Shown here: positions 15,418 through 64,000 of the stretch, in pieces | Layout: every line of letters begins with the position of its first letter | How positions within the stretch are numbered: the first letter of the stretch is position 1 | Made by a program: the position numbers and the translations under genes | From: Primula veris | Taxonomy: Eukaryota; Streptophyta; Magnoliopsida; Ericales; Primulaceae | Assembly (NCBI GenBank): GCA_963682055.1 | Contig: OY821748.1 | Span: 6,796,843 to 6,860,842 of the forward strand | Direction: 5' to 3' | Length of the DNA stretch: 64,000 bases | Notes under the pieces: model-generated | Seen by the model: the letters and a program-made list of their open reading frames with translations, nothing else | Databases searched by the model: none | What the model was told of the DNA's origin: nothing

Positions 15418-21689
<6,272 letters not shown>

Positions 21690-36605: not shown

Positions 36606-36994
36606 TATTATTAATATAACTCAATACAAGCAATTTGTGGCTGCCCAATTTTGCTCAAATTTTTCAAAAATATATTCACTCTAATATTGTAATTACTATT
36701 AAATGATATCACTCAATTTAAATACATAAATAACTTAAAAAATGTTATTTTCCACGCATTTACATTTCAAACAAAATCGTTGTGTATTTTTTATAAGAGT
36801 AAAACATTATGTTACTCTTTATATACGATTATTAATTAATTATATTTAATCATTCGATATTTAAATTTTAAAAAAAATATTAATTTTATTTGTCGGGATC
36901 ATATCTATGTCACTGTGTATCGCATAGGCAACGCGTGCAATGATTAATAATGTAAATTATAAGCAGGGTTCTCTCTCACGCACACACACAAACC

Positions 36995-38728
36995 ATGTCT
37001 ATCTGTTCTTCTTCCAATATCCACGTGATTCATGTCACCAAAAGACACAAACTGATATCAAGTGAGTTAGATGATCAGTCATCGAAACATGATAAAATAC
37101 CATGGCCTAAAACAATACCATCTTCTAAAACGATTGTAAATAATATTAAGGGTGTAATTCCACTACTTTCCTCTCATTTCCCTCCCATCACAAGTGTCGT
37201 GTCATCGTTTTTGGACTCTTTTAGTTCTAAGTTCATGATCAACCCGCGATATCCTCCCTTTGTTGACCCCAAAATCGTGCTACAAGGGAATTTTTCCCCG
37301 GTAGAGGAGACACCTCCAACTGAATGCTTTGTCGTGGAGGGAAAACTTCCGCTCTCTCTAAACGGAGTATATATACGAAATGGGCCTAACCCTCAATATT
37401 ATCCTCGTGGACCTCACCACCTATTTGAAGGTGATGGGATGCTACATTCGGTCAAATTATGTAATGGTCGTGCTATTTTTTGTAATCGGTATGTCAAGAC
37501 ATATAAATACAAGCTTGAGTATGAAGCTGGTGCTCCCATGATAGTGAGTATCATGTCTGGCTTTCACGGTCTGGCTGATCTTGGCCGCTTTATAGGGTGT
37601 ATTAGGGACAACATAATAGGGAAAATGCGCGTCGATGGAGGATTTGGTACATCTAATACTAGCGTAGCCTCATTTTATGGTAGGGTTTTCACGATGATGG
37701 AGTCTGACCTTCCTTATGAAATAGAATTAACTGAAAATGGTGATATTGTCACGAAGGGAAGATATGACTTCAATAAAAGTGCACCTTTTAATATGTGCGC
37801 ACATCCAAAAATAGACGTTGAAAGTGGTGAGTTATTTTCTTTTCAATGTTTCCCTATATTTCCTTATTTGAGTTTATTTTGCTTCGATGATTCGGGTTCC
37901 ATGCAAAAGCACATACCGATGTTGTGTTTGAAGCATCCGATTTATGTCCACGACTTCGCTATCACCAAAAAATACCTTGTATTTCAAGATATCCAGATTG
38001 AGATGGATTCACTTAATTTGCTGTGTTGTAAGGGTATGCCTGTAACGTATAGACCAACAAAAGTACCTCGTCTTGGTGTGATCTCACGACACGCAACAAC
38101 CGATTCAGATATGAGATGGTTCAAAACACCCGGATTTAATGCTTTCCATATCCTTAATGCATGGGAAGATGATGATGATGACACTATCACTATCATTGCA
38201 CCAAATTTGCTATTACCTGATAAATTATTTGAAAAATTGGATGAGTGCCATTTCTCTTTAGAAAAACTGAAAGTTAACTTAAAAACCGGAATGGTTTCTA
38301 GAATTTTGCTTTCAGACAAGAGTCTGGAATTGGGATCCATTAACCCTGCATACCAAGGAAAAAAGAACAGATTCGTTTATATGGGTATTAGTGAAGGTAT
38401 ACCTAAAATGTCGGGGGTAGTAAAGATTGATTTGGAATTAGGTCGTGAAGTGGCTAGTCGAAGCTATGGACCAGATATATTTGGTGGAGAAGTGTTATTT
38501 GTTGCTAGGAGAGACGACAAATGTGTAAAGTGTTGCGATGAAGATGACGGCTATTTATTAACCTACATTCATGATGAGAAAAATATTGAGTCGAATTTTG
38601 TGCTGATGGATGCGAAATCGGAAAATTTAGACATTTTGGTCACTATAAGGTTGCCATCAAGAGTACCTTACGGCTTTCATGGACTCTTTGTTCGTGATTG
38701 TAAAGGGAATGGAGTTGTTACGATATAG
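36995..38728 (+). CDS. CCD4: Carotenoid cleavage dioxygenase 4 (CCD4), intronless
   Basis: A single 577-aa open frame from ATG at 36995 to TAG. It aligns along its length with plant CCD4, a plastid non-heme iron enzyme that cleaves carotenoids to apocarotenoids and lowers carotenoid content in petals, fruits and seeds. The start is preceded by a CT/CA-rich leader. Residues 1-80 are Ser/Lys-rich and fit a plastid transit peptide. The body begins at NPRYPPFVDP. YIRNGPNPQYYPRGPHHLFE (127-145, plus GDGMLH) is the family signature. The four iron-binding histidines are in place: H270 (CAHPKID), H319 (VHDFAITKKY), H385 (GFNAFHILNAWE) and H562 (YGFHGLFV). YGPDIFGGEVLFVARR corresponds to the conserved late block. 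Conserved second-shell glutamates appear present near E236 and E499. An acidic run (EDDDDD, 391-396) extends a normally acidic loop. Length and ends are full for the family. Nothing suggests inactivation. Confidence 0.94.
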   Translation: MSICSSSNIHVIHVTKRHKLISSELDDQSSKHDKIPWPKTIPSSKTIVNNIKGVIPLLSSHFPPITSVVSSFLDSFSSKFMINPRYPPFVDPKIVLQGNFSPVEETPPTECFVVEGKLPLSLNGVYIRNGPNPQYYPRGPHHLFEGDGMLHSVKLCNGRAIFCNRYVKTYKYKLEYEAGAPMIVSIMSGFHGLADLGRFIGCIRDNIIGKMRVDGGFGTSNTSVASFYGRVFTMMESDLPYEIELTENGDIVTKGRYDFNKSAPFNMCAHPKIDVESGELFSFQCFPIFPYLSLFCFDDSGSMQKHIPMLCLKHPIYVHDFAITKKYLVFQDIQIEMDSLNLLCCKGMPVTYRPTKVPRLGVISRHATTDSDMRWFKTPGFNAFHILNAWEDDDDDTITIIAPNLLLPDKLFEKLDECHFSLEKLKVNLKTGMVSRILLSDKSLELGSINPAYQGKKNRFVYMGISEGIPKMSGVVKIDLELGREVASRSYGPDIFGGEVLFVARRDDKCVKCCDEDDGYLLTYIHDEKNIESNFVLMDAKSENLDILVTIRLPSRVPYGFHGLFVRDCKGNGVVTI

Positions 38729-47818: not shown

Positions 47819-50800
47819 ATGGATGATAAAGGGGTAGCAATATGTACTATAGCACAAGGCAAGTTCAGGCTTGGGATGAAGATAGGCAAAGGAACTTTTA
47901 GCGAACTCTTTTTAGGTGCATCTTTTTTCTAAGTCATATCAACCCCATATAGTCTCTTATTTCTATAGTTTTTATTGTTTTAGCTCTTAGTTTGAATATT
48001 TTTTTCTGTAATATTTTAAGGTATAAATGTAGAAACAGGAGAAGAAGTTGCTGTAAAGCTGGTAAGTTGATTAACATGGGTATTTCTTCATTATTGTTTT
48101 TGAACCTAAGTAGCTTTAGCCACGTAATAGAAATATAGAATTAGTGTAATCATATCTCAATAAAAGAAAATTAGTGTAATTTTATCTGCTTAATTACTTC
48201 CTTTGCCTGCTCCTTTTTATTCTCTTTAAAGCCCTTAATGTAATTTTATCTCAATAAAAGAAATTTTGATTTTTTTTTGTAGCTTGATTCAAGTTCAGTC
48301 TTCCTTTACATGAAGTTTGGTCCTTTCTAGGGAGTACTATGCAAAAGTATCTGGCGTTTTCTAATCATTATTTTAACTTAGGGCTTGTCCTTTAGTTATT
48401 TTCTTATATATTTTTTTTTGCTTTTGCAATATATATATGAGTTGTTTTTTTCTATCATAATATTTCGTTATTTTAACCTTTGGCTTTTCCTTTAGCTTCA
48501 GTTAGAACTTTAATATTTTTCCTTCGTTTGCCTTCTTTCGCAGTTTGCTTCAAGTCTGCAAAGATATAAGTCGTTTCATCTGTCATGTCATTTTGTCAAT
48601 ATATAAACCTACATTATCTATTGATTCGTGTTTTTTGCATCTACGGAAATTGGGTTCTTATTTCTTAATACTGCCATATTGGAAGTGAACATGTATTAAA
48701 AGAGTATCAATTTGCATTATATCAATCCTTTTCGCTAGTTGATTATATTCCTAATTGATTAAATTTTACATGCGTTACAGAACTGAGGAGAAAGATAGAG
48801 ACCGTCAGTTAGAGATACAGATTACAGACTTATCTAGCTTGTGGTGTGATAGTATTTGTTGAGTTGCGTACATTGATATTTTGATGGTTTAATGGATTTT
48901 AACCTGCATGATATGCTTGCAAGAGTAGATACTCTTGTATATGATTAGATATCCTGTGTACCAAAAAGGAAAAAAGATTAATCATTTCCCTTTGGCTTGC
49001 TCTTTTGTTTGAGTCAAGGAACCGGTAACGGCCAAGAATCAGCAACTTCACTTTGAATCCAAATTGTATACGCTTCTTTGTGGAGGAAGTAAGTCCTCTC
49101 TGCTAAGTAAAAAATAATCATTTCATAATTTCCAAAAATTTCTGATAATATGACAATAATAGACTAATAGTATTATTTTGTTTTTTGAGTGAAGATGGTA
49201 TACCACTTCTCAAATGGTATGGAGTAGAAGGTGGATACAATGTAATGGTCATTGATCTACTTGGGCCAAGCCTAGAAGACTTGTTTGATTTCTGTAAAAG
49301 AAAATTTACATTAAAAACGGTTCTAATGCTGGCGGATCAACTAGTAAGTTCACTGCATCTTCAATTGATTTTTTCCGAAAACTGTAAGAATTATGCTTTA
49401 TCCTGATTGTTTACAGATAAATAGAGTTGAATATATACACTCAAGAGGTATTCTTCACCGTGACGTAAAGCCCGAAAACTTTCTAATGGGTGTAACACGC
49501 AAAGCAAATCAGGTATAACCTTTGTTTTGGTAGTTTATCAGGGTGTATTTTTCAGTAGTATGATTATATATGACTACTCAAGTCTATGATGTAGTACTTT
49601 ATAAGTTTAGGACGATATTGTGTTGTATCTATATGATGCATTGAGATTTACTCTTTGGACATTTTTGCAATGACAATAAGAGTTCAAACTTAATATTGTT
49701 TGACCAGTTTGTCTTGCAGCCTCCTTTTAGATAAGAGAAATTTCAGATTTGAGTTTAACTAAAAAACGAAAAAAGACGGAATTGATAAACATTATTCCAC
49801 TTTGAATTCTACATTTGTTTGTGTACATTTACTCCCAACATGGCATGGATCAATCACTTTATTTTGTAGAAAAACATATAACATATTGGTATATTAGTTT
49901 TAATCGATGAAAAGGGCCTTGAACGTGGAAAGATTAGCTAACACTTTCGGTAGAAAATTGAATTTGCTCAGATTTACTCGTACTAGTAAATGCTTTCATA
50001 ACTTTTGCTTTTTTTGAACTCCAATTTTTTCAGATATATGTTATTGATTTTGGGCTTTCGAAGAAGTATAGAGATCTTGAAACACACAAACATATTCCCT
50101 ACAGGTATTAAAGAAATTTCGTAAAAAGCTTAAGATTTATAACATTTTCAACCCTTAACTTTAAAAAAATGTTATTGTTTTGTTACTAGCAAGGAGATTC
50201 CAGATTCTTATGCACTCGTGTCCGAAGTTTGTAACATTGCAATCTTCATCGAAAAAACTTTTCCTTAGGTGCTTCAGCTTGTGATTTTGTGAACTTATCT
50301 GAGCACTTTTTATGCTTTGCCAGGGATAATAAAAATATGACAGGGACTCCACGTTATGCGAGTGTTAACGCCCATCTTGGAATTGGTAAGTATGTCAAAC
50401 TCTTTTCAACCATATGCTAACATATTTGTGATTTGTTTTTTTGTTTTCCAAATTATCAAGCATAATATTATTTACAGAGCAAAGCAGAAGGGATGACTTG
50501 GTATCGCTTGGTTACATGCTAATGTATTTTCTACGGGGAAGGTAATACTAAAAAAATTCTCACAGAGAGAAACTGTCATTATTACAACTTAATTGGACGA
50601 CACCCTTATAATACGAGGTGGGCCCAAATTTTTTATGTTTTTGCTGTTTTTAGCTTGCCTTGGCAGGGGATAAAAGGTGGCACAAGGAAGGAAAAAATTG
50701 AGAAAATTAACGAAAAAAAGATGCATACTTCGGTAGAGGTACGATTATGTGATTTTGAAACCTGTGCTTCTAAAACATCAATTTTAGTATAACTAAGTTG

Positions 50801-51979
50801 AAAGAGTGCTGGCGTGTTTGATGTTTTGTGTACGACATTTGAAAAATTGCGTATCTTTTTTACCCATGTTTTTACTGATGTTCTTTTAATCAGGTGCTGT
50901 GCAATAACTTCCCTTTAGAGTTCATTACATACTTCCACTATTGCCGATCATTGGGATTTGAGGATAATCCAGACTATTCGTTCCTCAAGAGGCTTTTCCG
51001 GGATTTATTTATAAAAAATGGTATATCATCATTTGCTTAGCTCGATTGTTCTTGTTTAGTTGTGATTAACATCTCATTACGGTTTTCTTTTTATTCCAAG
51101 TTGCTGCCTTCATTGCTACAAGTATCTGATGGAACCCGGATAGGATCCACCTATGATTGCATAGAAATAAACTAGAAAATAGAAGAACAAGATAACAAAA
51201 TTCTTTTACTGGTAACTAAAATCATACTTAACCTTTTTCTTTGATCTTTGATAATTAGGCATTACATAGATATAAATAGGCAAACGTAGAAAGCCCTAAT
51301 TCTTAATGTGCTCGGTCAGGGATCGGCACCCTTTGAGAAGCCTAAGAGATTTAATTTATTTAAATACAAAATAAGGACTAATATACTGAATAAATCTTAA
51401 TTTACTAATTTTAAACAAACCTTTCTCATCAACATACTTCTCTTTATGCTCTATTTTCCTTTTACAGGCTATGAATTCGATTACGTCTTTGACTGGACTG
51501 TTCTGAAGTATTCACAGCTTGCTTCAAGCTCTAGAACACGGGTCAGTACTCTTCACTATCTTCATACTATTCTTATGTATTTTTAATATTTTATTTGGTA
51601 AAATTAATGTTTTTTTTTTCCCAATAATCATTGCAGTTTATCTTCTTGTCAATTACAGGAACCATCTACGGAACCATCATCAATAGAAGATATTGAATTA
51701 GCTATGGCTATCAACCTCTCTATTCAATCTCTCCCAGGATCAAGCCACCCTTCCACCACAAAAGATGAAATTAAAAATAACCATAATGATGAAAATAGAG
51801 AAGGTTTTTCTACCTCCTCGTGTGCGATATGTTTAGACGGTCCAGTTGAAGGGGCTTGTATCCCATGTGGACATATGGCTGGCTGTATGTCTTGTTTGAA
51901 CGTGATCAAAACCAAGAACTTGGGTTGTCCTATTTGTAGAGCCAAGATCGACCAGGTTGTTCGCATTTATACTGTTTAG
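47819..51979 (+). CDS. Casein kinase 1 fused to a UIM and a C-terminal RING finger, 12 exons
   Basis: Exons: 47819-47915, 48021-48061, 49019-49088, 49195-49343, 49417-49512, 50034-50104, 50324-50385, 50478-50541, 50654-50738, 50894-51020, 51468-51541 and 51659-51979. All junctions are GT-AG and phases agree, giving 418 aa. Residues 14-302 are a full CK1 domain: [20 protein letters not shown], Lys45 (VAVK), [10 protein letters not shown] with Asp135, DFG Asp156, [20 protein letters not shown], the CK1-specific [19 protein letters not shown], and [15 protein letters not shown]. No catalytic residue is missing. Instead of the usual CK1 tail, the last exon encodes [16 protein letters not shown] (321-336, UIM-like) and a RING finger with ligands C367, C370, C382, H384, C388, C391, C402, C405, ending [12 protein letters not shown] as in XBAT35/XBOS34-type E3 ligases. 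The last junction is phase 0 and in frame. Predicted role (inference): a kinase that also binds ubiquitin and recruits an E2. I know of no described plant CK1 with this tail. Expression is unproven. Confidence 0.82.
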
Positions 51980-56403: not shown

Positions 56404-59400
56404 ATGAATCAAAATCCTAACAATAGTAATCAAGTCGACACTCTTTCAACCATGGTTCCCGACGAATTTTCGGAAGATGATATTGCATTAGCAATGGCTC
56501 TCAGTCTCAGTGCGTCTATCCAATCTGCTGCAGAAACAATGCCACCTTATGCCACTGCTAACCGTGTCAACGAAACAGGTACTGAAGTACTGTAGGTTGT
56601 GACAATAAGAGACAACATCGCAATGAAAATAAAATGCTCCTAGTTAACTTTATTGTTATGAACTATCAACATACTTGTTTAAATTATTTACCACCCCAGT
56701 TCCGACATCCGTTTTCTTTTGCAATTATTCTTTATTTTAGTTTCTGTATCCCTCATAAATAATTCTTGTTCCGCCTTTGCATATAATCCTTGATTAACCC
56801 CGGTTCTACAGAAGCAAGCAATTATGTTTCCCAAGCCAGTAAATCCGTTTACCTAGGAATCAAAACTGTGATAATTATGACCAAGTTAAGTTGACATTCC
56901 TTCGGCTACGGCTATCAATACGACAGGATATATTGAATCAAGTGTGAGATCGTGGCTATCAACACATCTATCCAATATGCTGCAGAAGAAATTAATCATT
57001 CTTCCTGCACTAATCTTACCTTCCCGGCACAAATTACTAGATAACGTAATTAGGATGCCACAACATACTGTAACTTTAGGCTGACAAAACTTTTTTCTTC
57101 ATACATTTGAGCATTATTTGATTGAAATATTGATTTGGCACACCCCCAACCGTTTGTCTTACTCAGCTTTTAGTTTCTGGCACCGCAGGCACATCCTCAA
57201 ATGATCCGGGTCATACGCAAGCAAGCACTGATGACTCCCAAACTTATGCAATCTGGTTACTTATTGCAGTTGCACAACTTAATGAGTTAGCTATGGCTCT
57301 TAGTGCCTCCATCCAATCCGTTGAAGAATCAGTACCTTCTTATGACCCTGCTAATCTTATCAACGAAGCAGGTATACATAACTAGGTAGTAAACTGTAAA
57401 AGTAGGTGCCGAGACAGCCTCATAATAATAAAAATGACCTTATCATTATGTACTTTCAGCACTCCAATATTTGTGTTCACTCCCAATATTTGTTTTACTC
57501 AGCATTAAATCACTACATGAATTTATGCATCCTCCATAAACATTTTTTTGTTCTGAGGGACCAAGTTAAATTGACATTCCTTCGGCTCTGGCTATCAACA
57601 CATTTTCGACAGATTAAACTTAATAAAGTGCATGCGGAGATTGTGGCTATTGACGCCTCTATTCAATACGCTGCAAAAGAAATTACTCATTCGTCCAGCA
57701 CTATTATTACCCTTGCGCACAAAAAACTAGATAGAGACATTAGGATCTACAAGACAATGTAACTTTAGGTAGACAAAAAAAAATCTTCATGCATTTGAGC
57801 ATAATTTTGATTGAAATATTGATTTGGCACACACCCAACCATTTATCTTACTCAGCTTTTAGTTTTTGACACCGCAGGCACATCCTCAAATAACCCTAGT
57901 AATACGCAAGTAAGCACTGATGGTTCCCAAACTAATGAAATCCGTTTACCTATTGATCAAAATTCTGATAATAATAACCAAGTTGACCCTGCTTCAACCG
58001 CGGGTAGCGACACATTTTCGGAAGAAGATATTGCATTAGCTATGGCTCTCAGCGCCTCCATCCAACCCGTTGAAGAAACAGTACCTTTTTCTGCCCCGGC
58101 TAATCTTATCGATGAAGCAGGTATACATAACTAAGTAGTAACAGTAAGGTGCCATGCCAGACCCAAAATAATAAACGACTTTATCACTATATACTTTCAA
58201 CATATTTGTTTAAAGTGTTTATTACCACACTCACAATATTTGTTTGCTTAGCATTAATTTTCTATCTGAATTTATGTATCCTTCATAAACAATTCCTTGT
58301 CCTGCTACTGCCTGTACATTCTTGATTAATTTCGATCCTACAGAAACAAGATACAATGTTTCCAATGAAATCCGTTCACCTAGTAATCAAAATCATGACA
58401 ATAGTGACCAAGTTGATACTACGACTGTGTCTATCAATACATATTCGGCTGAAGATATTGAATTAGCTGCGGAGGTAGCCAGCGCCTCTATCCAATATGC
58501 TGTAGAATCCGATAACCCTTCTGCCACTGCTAGTCTTACTGCTCAAACAGGTAAACAAAACCAAATACTGATAGTAGGGTGCCATAGCATACAATTAATT
58601 GAGAAGAAAATGAATGTTTGCCTTTGTGTATTTTGAGTATAATTCGACTGCAATATGCCAGTATTGACTTGGCACCTCCAAACTCTTTGTTTTGATTAGT
58701 TGCTAGTTTTTTTCCTTATAAATATTTCTAGTCTTTGGTCCATTATATTTTGTTATCATAAAAAAAGGAGTAATTATGACTGAACCTTGACTCAACAAAC
58801 GCACACACCCGCTCAACTGTTTTATTTTCAAGCTGTTATTTTAGTTCGAATTTTGGCACCATTCATTAATAGTGACCAAATTTTTATTTCTGTAGCTGCA
58901 AGCACATCTTCAGTTAGCCCTGATCCTACACAATCAAGAACCAGTGACAACAATAACCAAGTCGACATTCCTTCGACCGAGGCTATTGACACAGATTTGC
59001 TAGAAGAAATTGAATTAGCAATGGCTATCAGATTCTCTATCGAATCTGCTGATGAATTAATGTCCTCTAATGCCATCGCTAATCTTATCATTGAAGAAGG
59101 TACACGTAGCTAGATAGTGACCATAGGGTCCCACCACTGTCGACTCCCCCATAATCATGTAAAATACATTTACCAATATCTGCTTTCCGGTATACAAAGT
59201 TTAAAATATGATTCTTATTTTCTACAGCTAAGAAAAACGAAGGTCATTCTTCTCCGTTATGTGTGATATGCTTAGACGCTTCGGTTGAAGGGGCTTGCGT
59301 CCCATGTGGACACATGAATGGTTGTATGCATTGTCTGAATGAGATCAAAGCCAAGAACTTGGGATGCCCTTTGTGCCGGGCCAAAATCGACCAAGTCATT

Positions 59401-59415
59401 CGCATTTACTTTTAG
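56404..59415 (+). CDS. Multi-UIM RING-finger protein, 6 exons (predicted E3 ubiquitin ligase)
   Basis: Exons: 56404-56578, 57189-57371, 57878-58120, 58344-58550, 58896-59099 and 59228-59415. They join to exactly 400 codons including the stop (399 aa). Every intron is phase 1, so the four internal exons are symmetric and multiples of 3. Each of the first five exons ends in a UIM-like helix: SEDDIALAMALSLSASIQSA, LNELAMALSASIQSVEES, SEEDIALAMALSASIQPVEE, SAEDIELAAEVASASIQYAV, LEEIELAMAIRFSIESADEL. Between them lie Asn/Ser/Thr-rich linkers (DNNNQVD and similar). The last exon is a RING (C349, C352, C364, H366, C370, C373, C384, C387) ending AKIDQVIRIYF, close to that of the upstream CK1 fusion and of XBAT35. 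There are no ankyrin repeats, unlike XBAT35. The third UIM-like motif has the best consensus; the fourth lacks the central Ala-Leu pattern. Inference: binds polyubiquitin and acts as an E3. It could also be a decaying duplicate if not expressed; the start is the first ATG in the exon, with a stop 48 bp upstream in frame. Confidence 0.7.
56809..57046 (+). pseudogene. Decayed UIM exon in intron 1 of the UIM-RING gene
   Basis: A TTCTACAG acceptor is followed by AAGCAAGCAATTATGTTTCC, matching the start of the intact exon at 58344 (AAACAAGATACAATGTTTCC). A GACCAAGTTAAGTTGACATT block follows, then ACATCTATCCAATATGCTGC (the ASIQYA part of a UIM). A TGA at 56892-56894 and a 1-base shift break it, so splicing must skip it. 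Confidence 0.6.
57545..57747 (+). pseudogene. Second decayed UIM exon, in intron 2 of the UIM-RING gene
   Basis: It contains GGACCAAGTTAAATTGACAT, CCTTCGGCTCTGGCTATCAA and GCCTCTATTCAATACGCTGC. It matches the decayed exon at 56878-57046 at a spacing of about 680 bp, the same spacing as between the intact exons at 57189 and 57878. Thus a block of one dead plus one live UIM exon was tandemly duplicated inside the gene. Confidence 0.6.
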
Positions 59416-62400: not shown

Positions 62401-63067
62401 GCCACCATAGCCTAAGGAGATAGCTGTTGGTGTGGTGAAATGGAGGATAAATAAGAACCAATTGTTGGAAGAGAAAAACTTGGACAGGAACTAGTGACCT
62501 CTATTTAGGTACATTATTATGATTCACATAGTGTATGAATATTATCCTAGATCAGTTTCATCTTTTATGTTTTTGTTATATCTATTGGCTTCTATTTGCT
62601 CCTAGTTTTTAACATTTCTAAATGTGGAAAGTGGAAAGGAAGTTTGTGTGTAGTTTGAAAGTATATTGATCACATGGACATAGCTTCATTCTTATTTTGA
62701 TGCTTTTGTTACTTTAGTCATGCAATTTATTTTAGTGTTAAATAAATATAACCTCATCTTCATAGATAGTTATGGATTCATCTCATATACTTTGGTTTTT
62801 GGGAATTGGTCATCAAGTGTTAAGCGGCTATTGCAATCGGCTAAACTAATATTGAAGTTGATAATAGCACGACTTACTCTCGTAATCGGTCTTGTAAGTA
62901 GATGTTTTCTGCTGCAATAGGATCTTTGTTGTGGAAGAATGGTTTTTTATTTCATGAAAGGATACTTATAGAACTGGAATAGATTTTATAAGCGGGGAGT
63001 TAACCCATTGAAAACAATAGTCAATAACAAAAGTGAAGTAGTACATGATGATTGATCACAGGAAACC
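59416..63067. other. 3' flank of UIM-RING gene; right copy of the segmental duplication
   Basis: 60930-61000, 61015-61190 and 61220-61330 run parallel to 52998-53075, 53680-53880 and 55610-55735. Two GCATC-AAAAAGAAGAAG / GCATCTCAAAAAAATAAG phrases (61770, 61840) match 55860. No gene is recognised. ORFs at 60776 and 62720 are AT-rich noise. Confidence 0.55.
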
Positions 63068-63350
63068 AAAAATACTTATAGGCTTGACTCCAACTTTTCC
63101 GACACCTAAACCGAGCCGGGGTTTAAACAGTTTAGTACCCTTTACTATACTCTTTTTCCAATTTAGTATCATTAAGATACAATAATATCATGGGCGACTG
63201 TTTAGAAAATATCCGAGACATGAAACTAAAAATACTTATAGGGCTGACTCCAACTTTTCCGATACCCAAACCGAGCCGGGGTTTAAACAGTTTAGAACCC
63301 TTTACTATACACTTTTTTTCAATTTAGTATCATTAAGATACAATAATTTC
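63068..63350. repeat. Direct repeat, about 128 bp copies, 160-bp period
   Basis: AATACTTATAGGCTTGACTC ... ACCGAGCCGGGGTTTAAACA ... ATCATTAAGATACAATAAT recurs 160 bp later with few changes. GGGCGACTGTTT follows both copies (63193 and 63410). Confidence 0.8.
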
Positions 63351-63838
63351 AGATTTCTTTTCCCGGTCTTTTAAATTTAATTTAGAAAAGGATATAGGCA
63401 CCTTAACTGGGCGACTGTTTTGACTAGCCATATGACCCGCATTGAGAATATCGTGGGTTGGTTTCCAGAACACTTAACTATCCAAGTAAGGTGTTGTTTA
63501 TGTTTTAGGTTAGTTGTGTTTTTTGTACACGACATAAATTTAACAAGAATTATAGAGCTCCTTATATAGTCAACAAGAAACAAATCTTTACATTATAGAA
63601 ACAGATCATTTATCAAATCTGAATTAATCAAATCAAATCTAAATTAATCAAATCAAATCTCAATTATGTATTTACATTCTAATATAAATAACCTTTCTGT
63701 TTACCATTACCATTACCATTAAGATTCTGGTTGCCTCTCATATCTTAAGATACAATAATAGAATAAGTTTAGAGGGGTTGGTTATATCAAAATTCGAAGA
63801 TGTATGTTTTATGGATTGTAGGTTTCAATAATTCAGAT
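63351..63838. other. 5' flank of the third UIM unit
   Basis: It contains short tandem AAATTAATCAAATC units (63610-63660), a (CATTAC)n-like run near 63700-63720, and the block homologous to 56165-56230. Confidence 0.45.
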
Positions 63839-63955: not shown

Positions 63956-64000
63956 AAGAATCAAAATCCTAACAATAATAACCAAGTCGATATTGCTTCA
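63956..64000 (+). pseudogene. Start of a third UIM unit, ATG replaced by AAG (cut by window end)
   Basis: AATCAAAATCCTAACAATAA, then TAACCAAGTCGATATTGCTTCA, matches the first exon at 56407 (AATCAAAATCCTAACAATAG). The preceding codon is AAG (63956-63958) where unit 2 has ATG. The rest lies beyond the window. It may be a pseudogene or use another start. Confidence 0.6.

Follow-up and report, generated by a model that had tools for sequence, protein, structure and literature searches.

Plant proteins are known in which a kinase and an E3 ubiquitin ligase module share one chain. The U-box kinases (PUB class) combine a U-box with a receptor-like cytoplasmic kinase, and KEG (KEEP ON GOING) has a kinase that is not known to be of the casein kinase 1 (CK1) type. 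In KEG, RING and kinase are part of a single polypeptide with the order RING-kinase-ankyrin-HERC2, as given in the excerpted part of PMC11020294. The Triticeae kinase fusion proteins (Sr43, Pm4, Lr9, Snn3) combine a kinase with an unrelated partner domain; Sr43 arose by gene fusion, and the partner domains named in the excerpt of PMC10260397 are neither RING nor UIM. Here we analyse gene A, located at positions 47819-51979 of a 64,000-nucleotide stretch of the Primula veris genome (the window, C9:6796843-6860842; 436.5 Mb of genome were searched), in which a CK1 kinase domain is followed in frame by a UIM-like helix and a C3HC4 RING. It belongs to an array of six same-strand genes, A to F, in the window and its flank, comprising two CK1-UIM-RING genes (A and D), three UIM-RING genes (B, C and E) and one canonical CK1 (F).

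With the plant CKL kinases, gene A shares the kinase domain, ten exon lengths and the catalytic residues; F and a further CK1 on C9, termed G, show the complete canonical structure. CKL kinases have a Ser/Arg-rich tail of their own, whereas A carries the UIM-RING part instead, and omega is about eightfold higher in the fusions. This part matches XBAT35, XBAT34 and XBOS34 (XB3-like proteins), which likewise carry a C-terminal UIM-like helix followed by a C3HC4 RING, encoded by one last exon in the XBAT35-like gene on C9. The XBAT35 subfamily combines its RING with N-terminal ankyrin repeats, whereas A has the kinase in front and no ankyrin domain by Pfam. The domain order and content of A differ from those of KEG, and its RING and CK1 contrast with the U-box and receptor-like cytoplasmic kinase of the U-box kinases. 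As KEG is the nearest known architecture found, CK1-UIM-RING represents a new form within the kinase-plus-E3 proteins and not a separate class.

The preliminary description of this DNA had proposed that the architecture was new and suggested a domain search for proteins with CK1 and RING in related species. Our protein searches, which covered matches of 0.55-1.75 times the query length in annotated genomes, revealed no protein with both domains (precomputed Pfam) among the best 120 of 397, 120 of 7,989 and 120 of 397 matches. A literature search for a CK1-RING or CK1-UIM fusion gave no description among the matches listed, which comprised 8 of 8, 20 of 1,715, 2 of 2 and 12 of 20. The CK1-UIM-RING combination is novel within these database and literature searches, but gene A does not stand alone, as the array contains the second copy D.

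Gene A comprises 12 exons and 11 GT-AG introns, all 11 of them phase-consistent, which join into a single 1257-nt frame without a stop until position 51979. The gene model encodes a product of 418 residues with the CK1 kinase, the UIM-like helix and the C3HC4 RING, confirming the fusion structure given in the preliminary description. Re-deriving the exons by spliced alignment returned identical exons; since the gene A protein itself served as the query, this is not independent support for them. Exons 2-11 have the same lengths as those of the canonical F and G (41, 70, 149, 96, 71, 62, 64, 85, 127 and 74 nt). F and G also have exons 12-14, which encode the Ser/Arg-rich CKL tail; A lacks all three of these tail exons, and D retains exon 12 only.

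In the A protein, Pfam identified a protein kinase domain at residues 18-235 and a zf-C3HC4_3 RING (PF13920) at residues 365-412 with E=1e-11. The top match in the PDB is 3sv0, 'Casein kinase I-like', over residues 14-308 (E=3.4e-152), a structure that we take to be from rice. Many of the best 120 of 7,989 protein matches bear the name casein kinase 1-like, and the best matches of A are mostly plant proteins among the matches listed. The lysine and the two aspartates described as intact (K45, D135 of the HRD motif and D156 of the DFG motif) are all kept in the translation, and the eight RING ligands, also described as complete, show no variation in a 40-row alignment of the A exon with 39 matches hand-picked among 288 listed. 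In local alignments of the UIM-RING tail (105 residues), identity to XBAT35-type proteins is 49-83% at 50-100% coverage among the best 120 matches. In an NCBIfam scan, the kinase matches were generic and the single RING match was weak, every one lying far under the cut-off. The segment between kinase and RING fits the UIM pattern; in the 40-row alignment, its D, A and S do not vary at all, and E and L hardly do. A structure model of the UIM-RING exon places a helix at exon residues 10-21, with low confidence (mean pLDDT 56).

The fusion architecture is further supported by gene D, a second open copy with an in-phase junction of its own. In D, a 61-bp exon 12 comes after kinase exons 1-11. It encodes a short CK1-tail-like piece, equals exon 12 of F and G in length, ends in phase 1 and is spliced to a phase-1 UIM-RING exon whose frame runs on to the stop. 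In A, the UIM-RING exon directly follows exon 11. The last 25 nt of A intron 11 agree with the acceptor of D exon 12 at 22 of 25 positions, while the runner-up among 6,003 AGs reaches 17. D, in turn, is linked to CK1 exon 12 by the length, coding and phase of that exon. On the most economical reading of this acceptor, A exon 12 begins at the former CK1 exon-12 acceptor, an internal deletion presumably having turned exon 12 and the UIM-RING exon into one. As a separate observation, the UIM exons of D (exon 13, 75325) and E (91683) open with a segment resembling NPGPT of the CK1 tail exon 12, as seen when the D segment GTSSVNPGPTQ is set beside the NPGPT segment in F exon 12 (99637-99697).

Because D has its own junction, an assembly chimera or a one-off chance junction is unlikely. 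We rejected a separate UIM-RING gene beginning within intron 11, since the open frame of A exon 12 has no in-frame ATG ahead of the UIM. Breaks in D suggested by tblastn were due to reading over introns, and the spliced D model is open. Neither did we find XBAT35 ankyrin exons hidden upstream: in the 123,958-base array stretch, residues 266-300 and 406-473 alone of an XBAT35 protein (P0005) found a match. Another explanation would be that transcripts terminate within intron 11, so that the CK1 produced has no tail (stop at 51584-51586), with the UIM-RING exon unused or part of another transcript. A retained intron 11 would read 14 residues to this stop, and a CK1 without its tail could still be an active kinase; however, kinase and UIM-RING lie just 117 nt apart, no in-frame ATG precedes the UIM, D has a second in-phase junction via a CK1 tail exon, and omega for the UIM+RING of A is 0.28. 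We regard two such products as quite improbable, and the fused gene is very probably transcribed as one mRNA.

Codon substitution patterns indicated constraint on both halves. In a model of six CK1 genes, which leaves out J, the fusion branches had an omega of 0.366, against 0.043 for all other branches, with lnL of -3515.85 for two omegas against -3572.04 for one, and fixing omega at 1 cost 15.0 (2dlnL) for A and 14.5 for D. Three-way estimates of kinase omega were 0.28 (0.17-0.48) for A, 0.19 for F and 0.43 (0.26-0.77) for D, where 1 was reached in 0.6% of the replicates. For UIM+RING, we obtained 0.28 (0.08-0.87) for A, 0.14 (0.01-0.61) for D and 0.75 (0.16-8.0) for E. The dS of the A branch is similar in both halves (kinase 0.29, UIM+RING 0.32). 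The kinases of A and D are under purifying selection, and both copies look maintained, with a kinase that is changed or relaxed. The existence of a second intact copy, together with this pattern of selection, suggests that the hybrid functions as a protein.

The relaxed constraint relative to canonical CK1s could also be expected of a fused gene that is losing its function and happens to be open. Simulated unconstrained drift at 0.3 substitutions per site, with substitutions only and indels not modelled, gave a mean of 12.9 stops in A, with none of the 2000 simulations stop-free, and 15.5 stops in D. The models of A and D, in contrast, contain neither stop nor frameshift, their omega is below 1 for each gene separately, and the catalytic residues and RING ligands are kept, which makes such a relic highly improbable.

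The kinases of A and D appear to have a common history. Of 213 positions that hardly vary among CK1s (defined from 109 CK1 matches, P0132-P0240, nearly all plant), each of them deviates at 36 and F at 4; 18 of the deviating positions are common to A and D (P=2e-7), four of them with the identical residue. In a DNA tree of seven in-genome CK1 sequences, A and D are sisters (99/99), followed by F (91/93) and then G. The corresponding protein tree also joined A and D (90/93), and the placement of F and G was not settled; these trees used 4 of the 10 modelled loci. The sister relationship and the common deviations favour a single fusion that was later duplicated. In a wider protein tree, including 28 of the 109 CK1 matches, A and D lie outside on long branches (0.45 and 0.51; median 0.017), and F lies within the canonical CK1s.

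Such long branches, together with the tandem array, would also fit an immune decoy or sensor, in which a fast-evolving kinase baits a pathogen effector and the UIM-RING provides the output, as proposed for the wheat kinase fusions. Sr43, Pm4 and Lr9 are a precedent for this (excerpt of PMC10260397). Yet omega, estimated per branch, stays below 1 in the codon model. The neighbourhood says little for or against a resistance-gene context, as the scan covered five open frames of the window. We consider a decoy role clearly unlikely.

In the DNA tree, the nearest canonical CK1 outside the array is G (C9:2183253-2189568, minus strand). An XBAT35-like gene lies 33 kb from it (C9:2222786-2226582, minus strand), and the order of ligase and then kinase is the same as that of E and then F in the array. 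These neighbouring genes on C9 are a likely local source of the fusion. A duplicated ligase-kinase block would put a CK1 upstream of a UIM-RING part, allowing the two to fuse. In Vitis rotundifolia, an XBAT35-type and a CK1 protein, on contigs of equal size, carry the tags PVL29_006162 and PVL29_006169 among the matches listed, which suggests an old ligase-CK1 neighbourhood; in Protea, two such proteins on equal-size contigs have tags almost a thousand apart. Compared with the ankyrin-bearing XBAT35 protein, the XBAT35-like genes show no stop or frameshift over residues 73-473 (C9) and 6-473 (C5), the rest not being found within the C9 stretch analysed.

The likeliest reading, to which we give about even weight, is that A is a genuine CK1-UIM-RING fusion acting by coupled phosphorylation and ubiquitination, as one of two open copies in the tandem array. 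A CK1 gene would have lost its Ser/Arg tail and gained, by phase-compatible splicing, the terminal UIM-RING exon from an XBAT35-type ligase, and its kinase domain would stand in for the ankyrin repeats as the substrate-binding part. The kinase would dock on and phosphorylate CK1-type targets, often pre-phosphorylated ones. The RING would then recruit an E2 and ubiquitinate the same target or the enzyme itself, while the UIM-like helix could hold ubiquitin and thereby favour chain growth or self-control. Both activities are probably retained, and their coupling on one substrate has slightly less than an even chance. More tentatively, A may be a newly evolved single-chain 'write and tag' enzyme, whose CK1 part supplies substrate recognition and the phosphodegron while the captured UIM-RING tail ubiquitinates the freshly phosphorylated substrate, and which would have arisen from neighbouring CK1 and XBAT35-type genes, been duplicated later and diversified in kinase specificity within the array.

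AELs and EL1 belong to a CK1 branch other than that of the CKLs. CK1-type kinases promote the degradation of plant targets in several cases, namely PYR/PYL by AELs, CRY2 by CK1.3/1.4 and SLR1 by EL1 (excerpt of PMC7084540). XBAT35.2, on the ligase side, contains PSAP motifs and ubiquitinates VPS23A, which binds P[S/T]AP (excerpt of PMC13043654); the A and D sequences contain no P[S/T]AP motif. In these plant cases, a CK1-type kinase marks the target and separate machinery degrades it, and the fusion would unite both steps on one chain. If true, it would be a natural model and template for phosphorylation-directed degradation, and it offers a plausible evolutionary route from gene neighbours through tandem duplication to exon capture via a phase-matched intron, with selection data for both halves.

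The RING might instead chiefly ubiquitinate its own kinase, making A a CK1 of short lifetime that controls its own level through its tail. Many RING E3s autoubiquitinate, the chain that bears the RING could be its first target, and the long C-terminal tail of the canonical F and G is lost in A. The fast change of the kinase after the fusion, as given by the two omegas of the codon model, is more in line with a new substrate than with a simple shift in stability, and we hold this self-limiting role to be rather unlikely.

A number of observations weigh against a single, fully functional fusion. The RING parts join A with D in just 6% of bootstrap trees, and the UIM-RING of A is pairwise closer to that of E (dS 0.45) than to that of D (dS 0.90), so that the copies may have exchanged sequence or the tail may have been captured twice. 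The wider protein tree leaves A and D ungrouped with F, the three coming together in 0% of bootstraps. At the junction, the 25-nt acceptor of A agrees with that of F at 13 and with that of G at 15 of 25 positions (F against G, 13 of 25); the link of A to CK1 exon 12 therefore runs through D. The upper limit of omega for the UIM+RING of A is near 1, which 1.6% of the replicates reach. Among the 36 deviating positions of the A kinase is G28S, the third glycine of the glycine loop, and the activity of this kinase may thus be altered. A tryptophan that is near-invariant in the 40-row alignment is missing from all five array RINGs, as it also is from the XBAT35-like gene on C5. Finally, with matches accepted to E=10, Pfam showed no UIM for A, B or D, nor for the proteins P0005 and P0002, although HMMER filters remove most matches above about 0.1 and weak UIM matches may be lost. 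As the two XBAT35-type proteins (P0005 and P0002) lack a Pfam UIM as well as A, we term the segment UIM-like; the UIM of the preliminary description stood as a motif match without Pfam recognition, and its assignment would rest on motif and homology.

The features of gene A and of the array are listed in the table below. The RING model was found at 69 places genome-wide, five of them consecutive on C9 from the window onward. The UIM-RING exon of D had 13 genome-wide matches, comprising seven in array genes A-E, two in XBAT35-like genes and four weak ones elsewhere.

Features of gene A and of the six-gene array (coordinates beyond 64,000 continue the window numbering)
Feature	Position	Strand	Details
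CK1 kinase domain, exons 1-11 (gene A)	47819..51541	+	gene model; 3sv0 alignment; exon lengths 2-11
Exons 1-6 (gene A)	47819-47915, 48021-48061, 49019-49088, 49195-49343, 49417-49512, 50034-50104	+	
Exons 7-11 (gene A)	50324-50385, 50478-50541, 50654-50738, 50894-51020, 51468-51541	+	
Intron 11 (gene A)	51542..51658	+	117 nt; separates kinase from UIM-RING
Exon 12 (gene A)	51659..51979	+	UIM-like segment, linker, RING, stop codon; similar to the terminal exon in XBAT35-type ligases
UIM-like motif (16 protein letters not shown)	51683..51730	+	residues 321-336
C3HC4 RING finger	51815..51958	+	residues 365-412; Pfam PF13920 and genome RING search
A, CK1-UIM-RING	47.8-52.0 kb		
B, multi-UIM-RING without kinase	56404..59415	+	six exons placed by eye, 399 aa in frame
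C, second multi-UIM-RING, kinase-free	64.0-66.1 kb; match start 63959..64000 in window	+	63959 is where the spliced match begins, not a fixed gene start; match extends 2.15 kb beyond window
D, CK1-UIM-RING	70.96-75.79 kb		13 exons, 485 aa, open; 19 kb downstream of A
E, UIM-RING	91.2-92.2 kb		model lacks the gene start
F, canonical CK1	95.2-101.8 kb		14 exons, full tail

Genes B and C are made of repeated UIM-like exons with a terminal RING, and Pfam on B found the RING alone. Upstream of C, a 134-nt segment is tandemly duplicated at 63058-63351 with 92% identity. The CK1 kinase query gave 99 genome matches, from which ten loci were modelled; none had a frameshift, one of them (L037) aligned over six exons only, and a single stop was seen, in L040 (C5:20434000-20443999), an intron-poor CK1 copy that is perhaps a processed pseudogene. 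Elsewhere in the window, positions 17184-18986 contain exons of a further kinase (Pfam Pkinase), AGC-like by eye, and positions 36956-38728 form a 590-residue open frame that contains an RPE65-type domain (E=8e-102), presumably of the carotenoid cleavage dioxygenase family.

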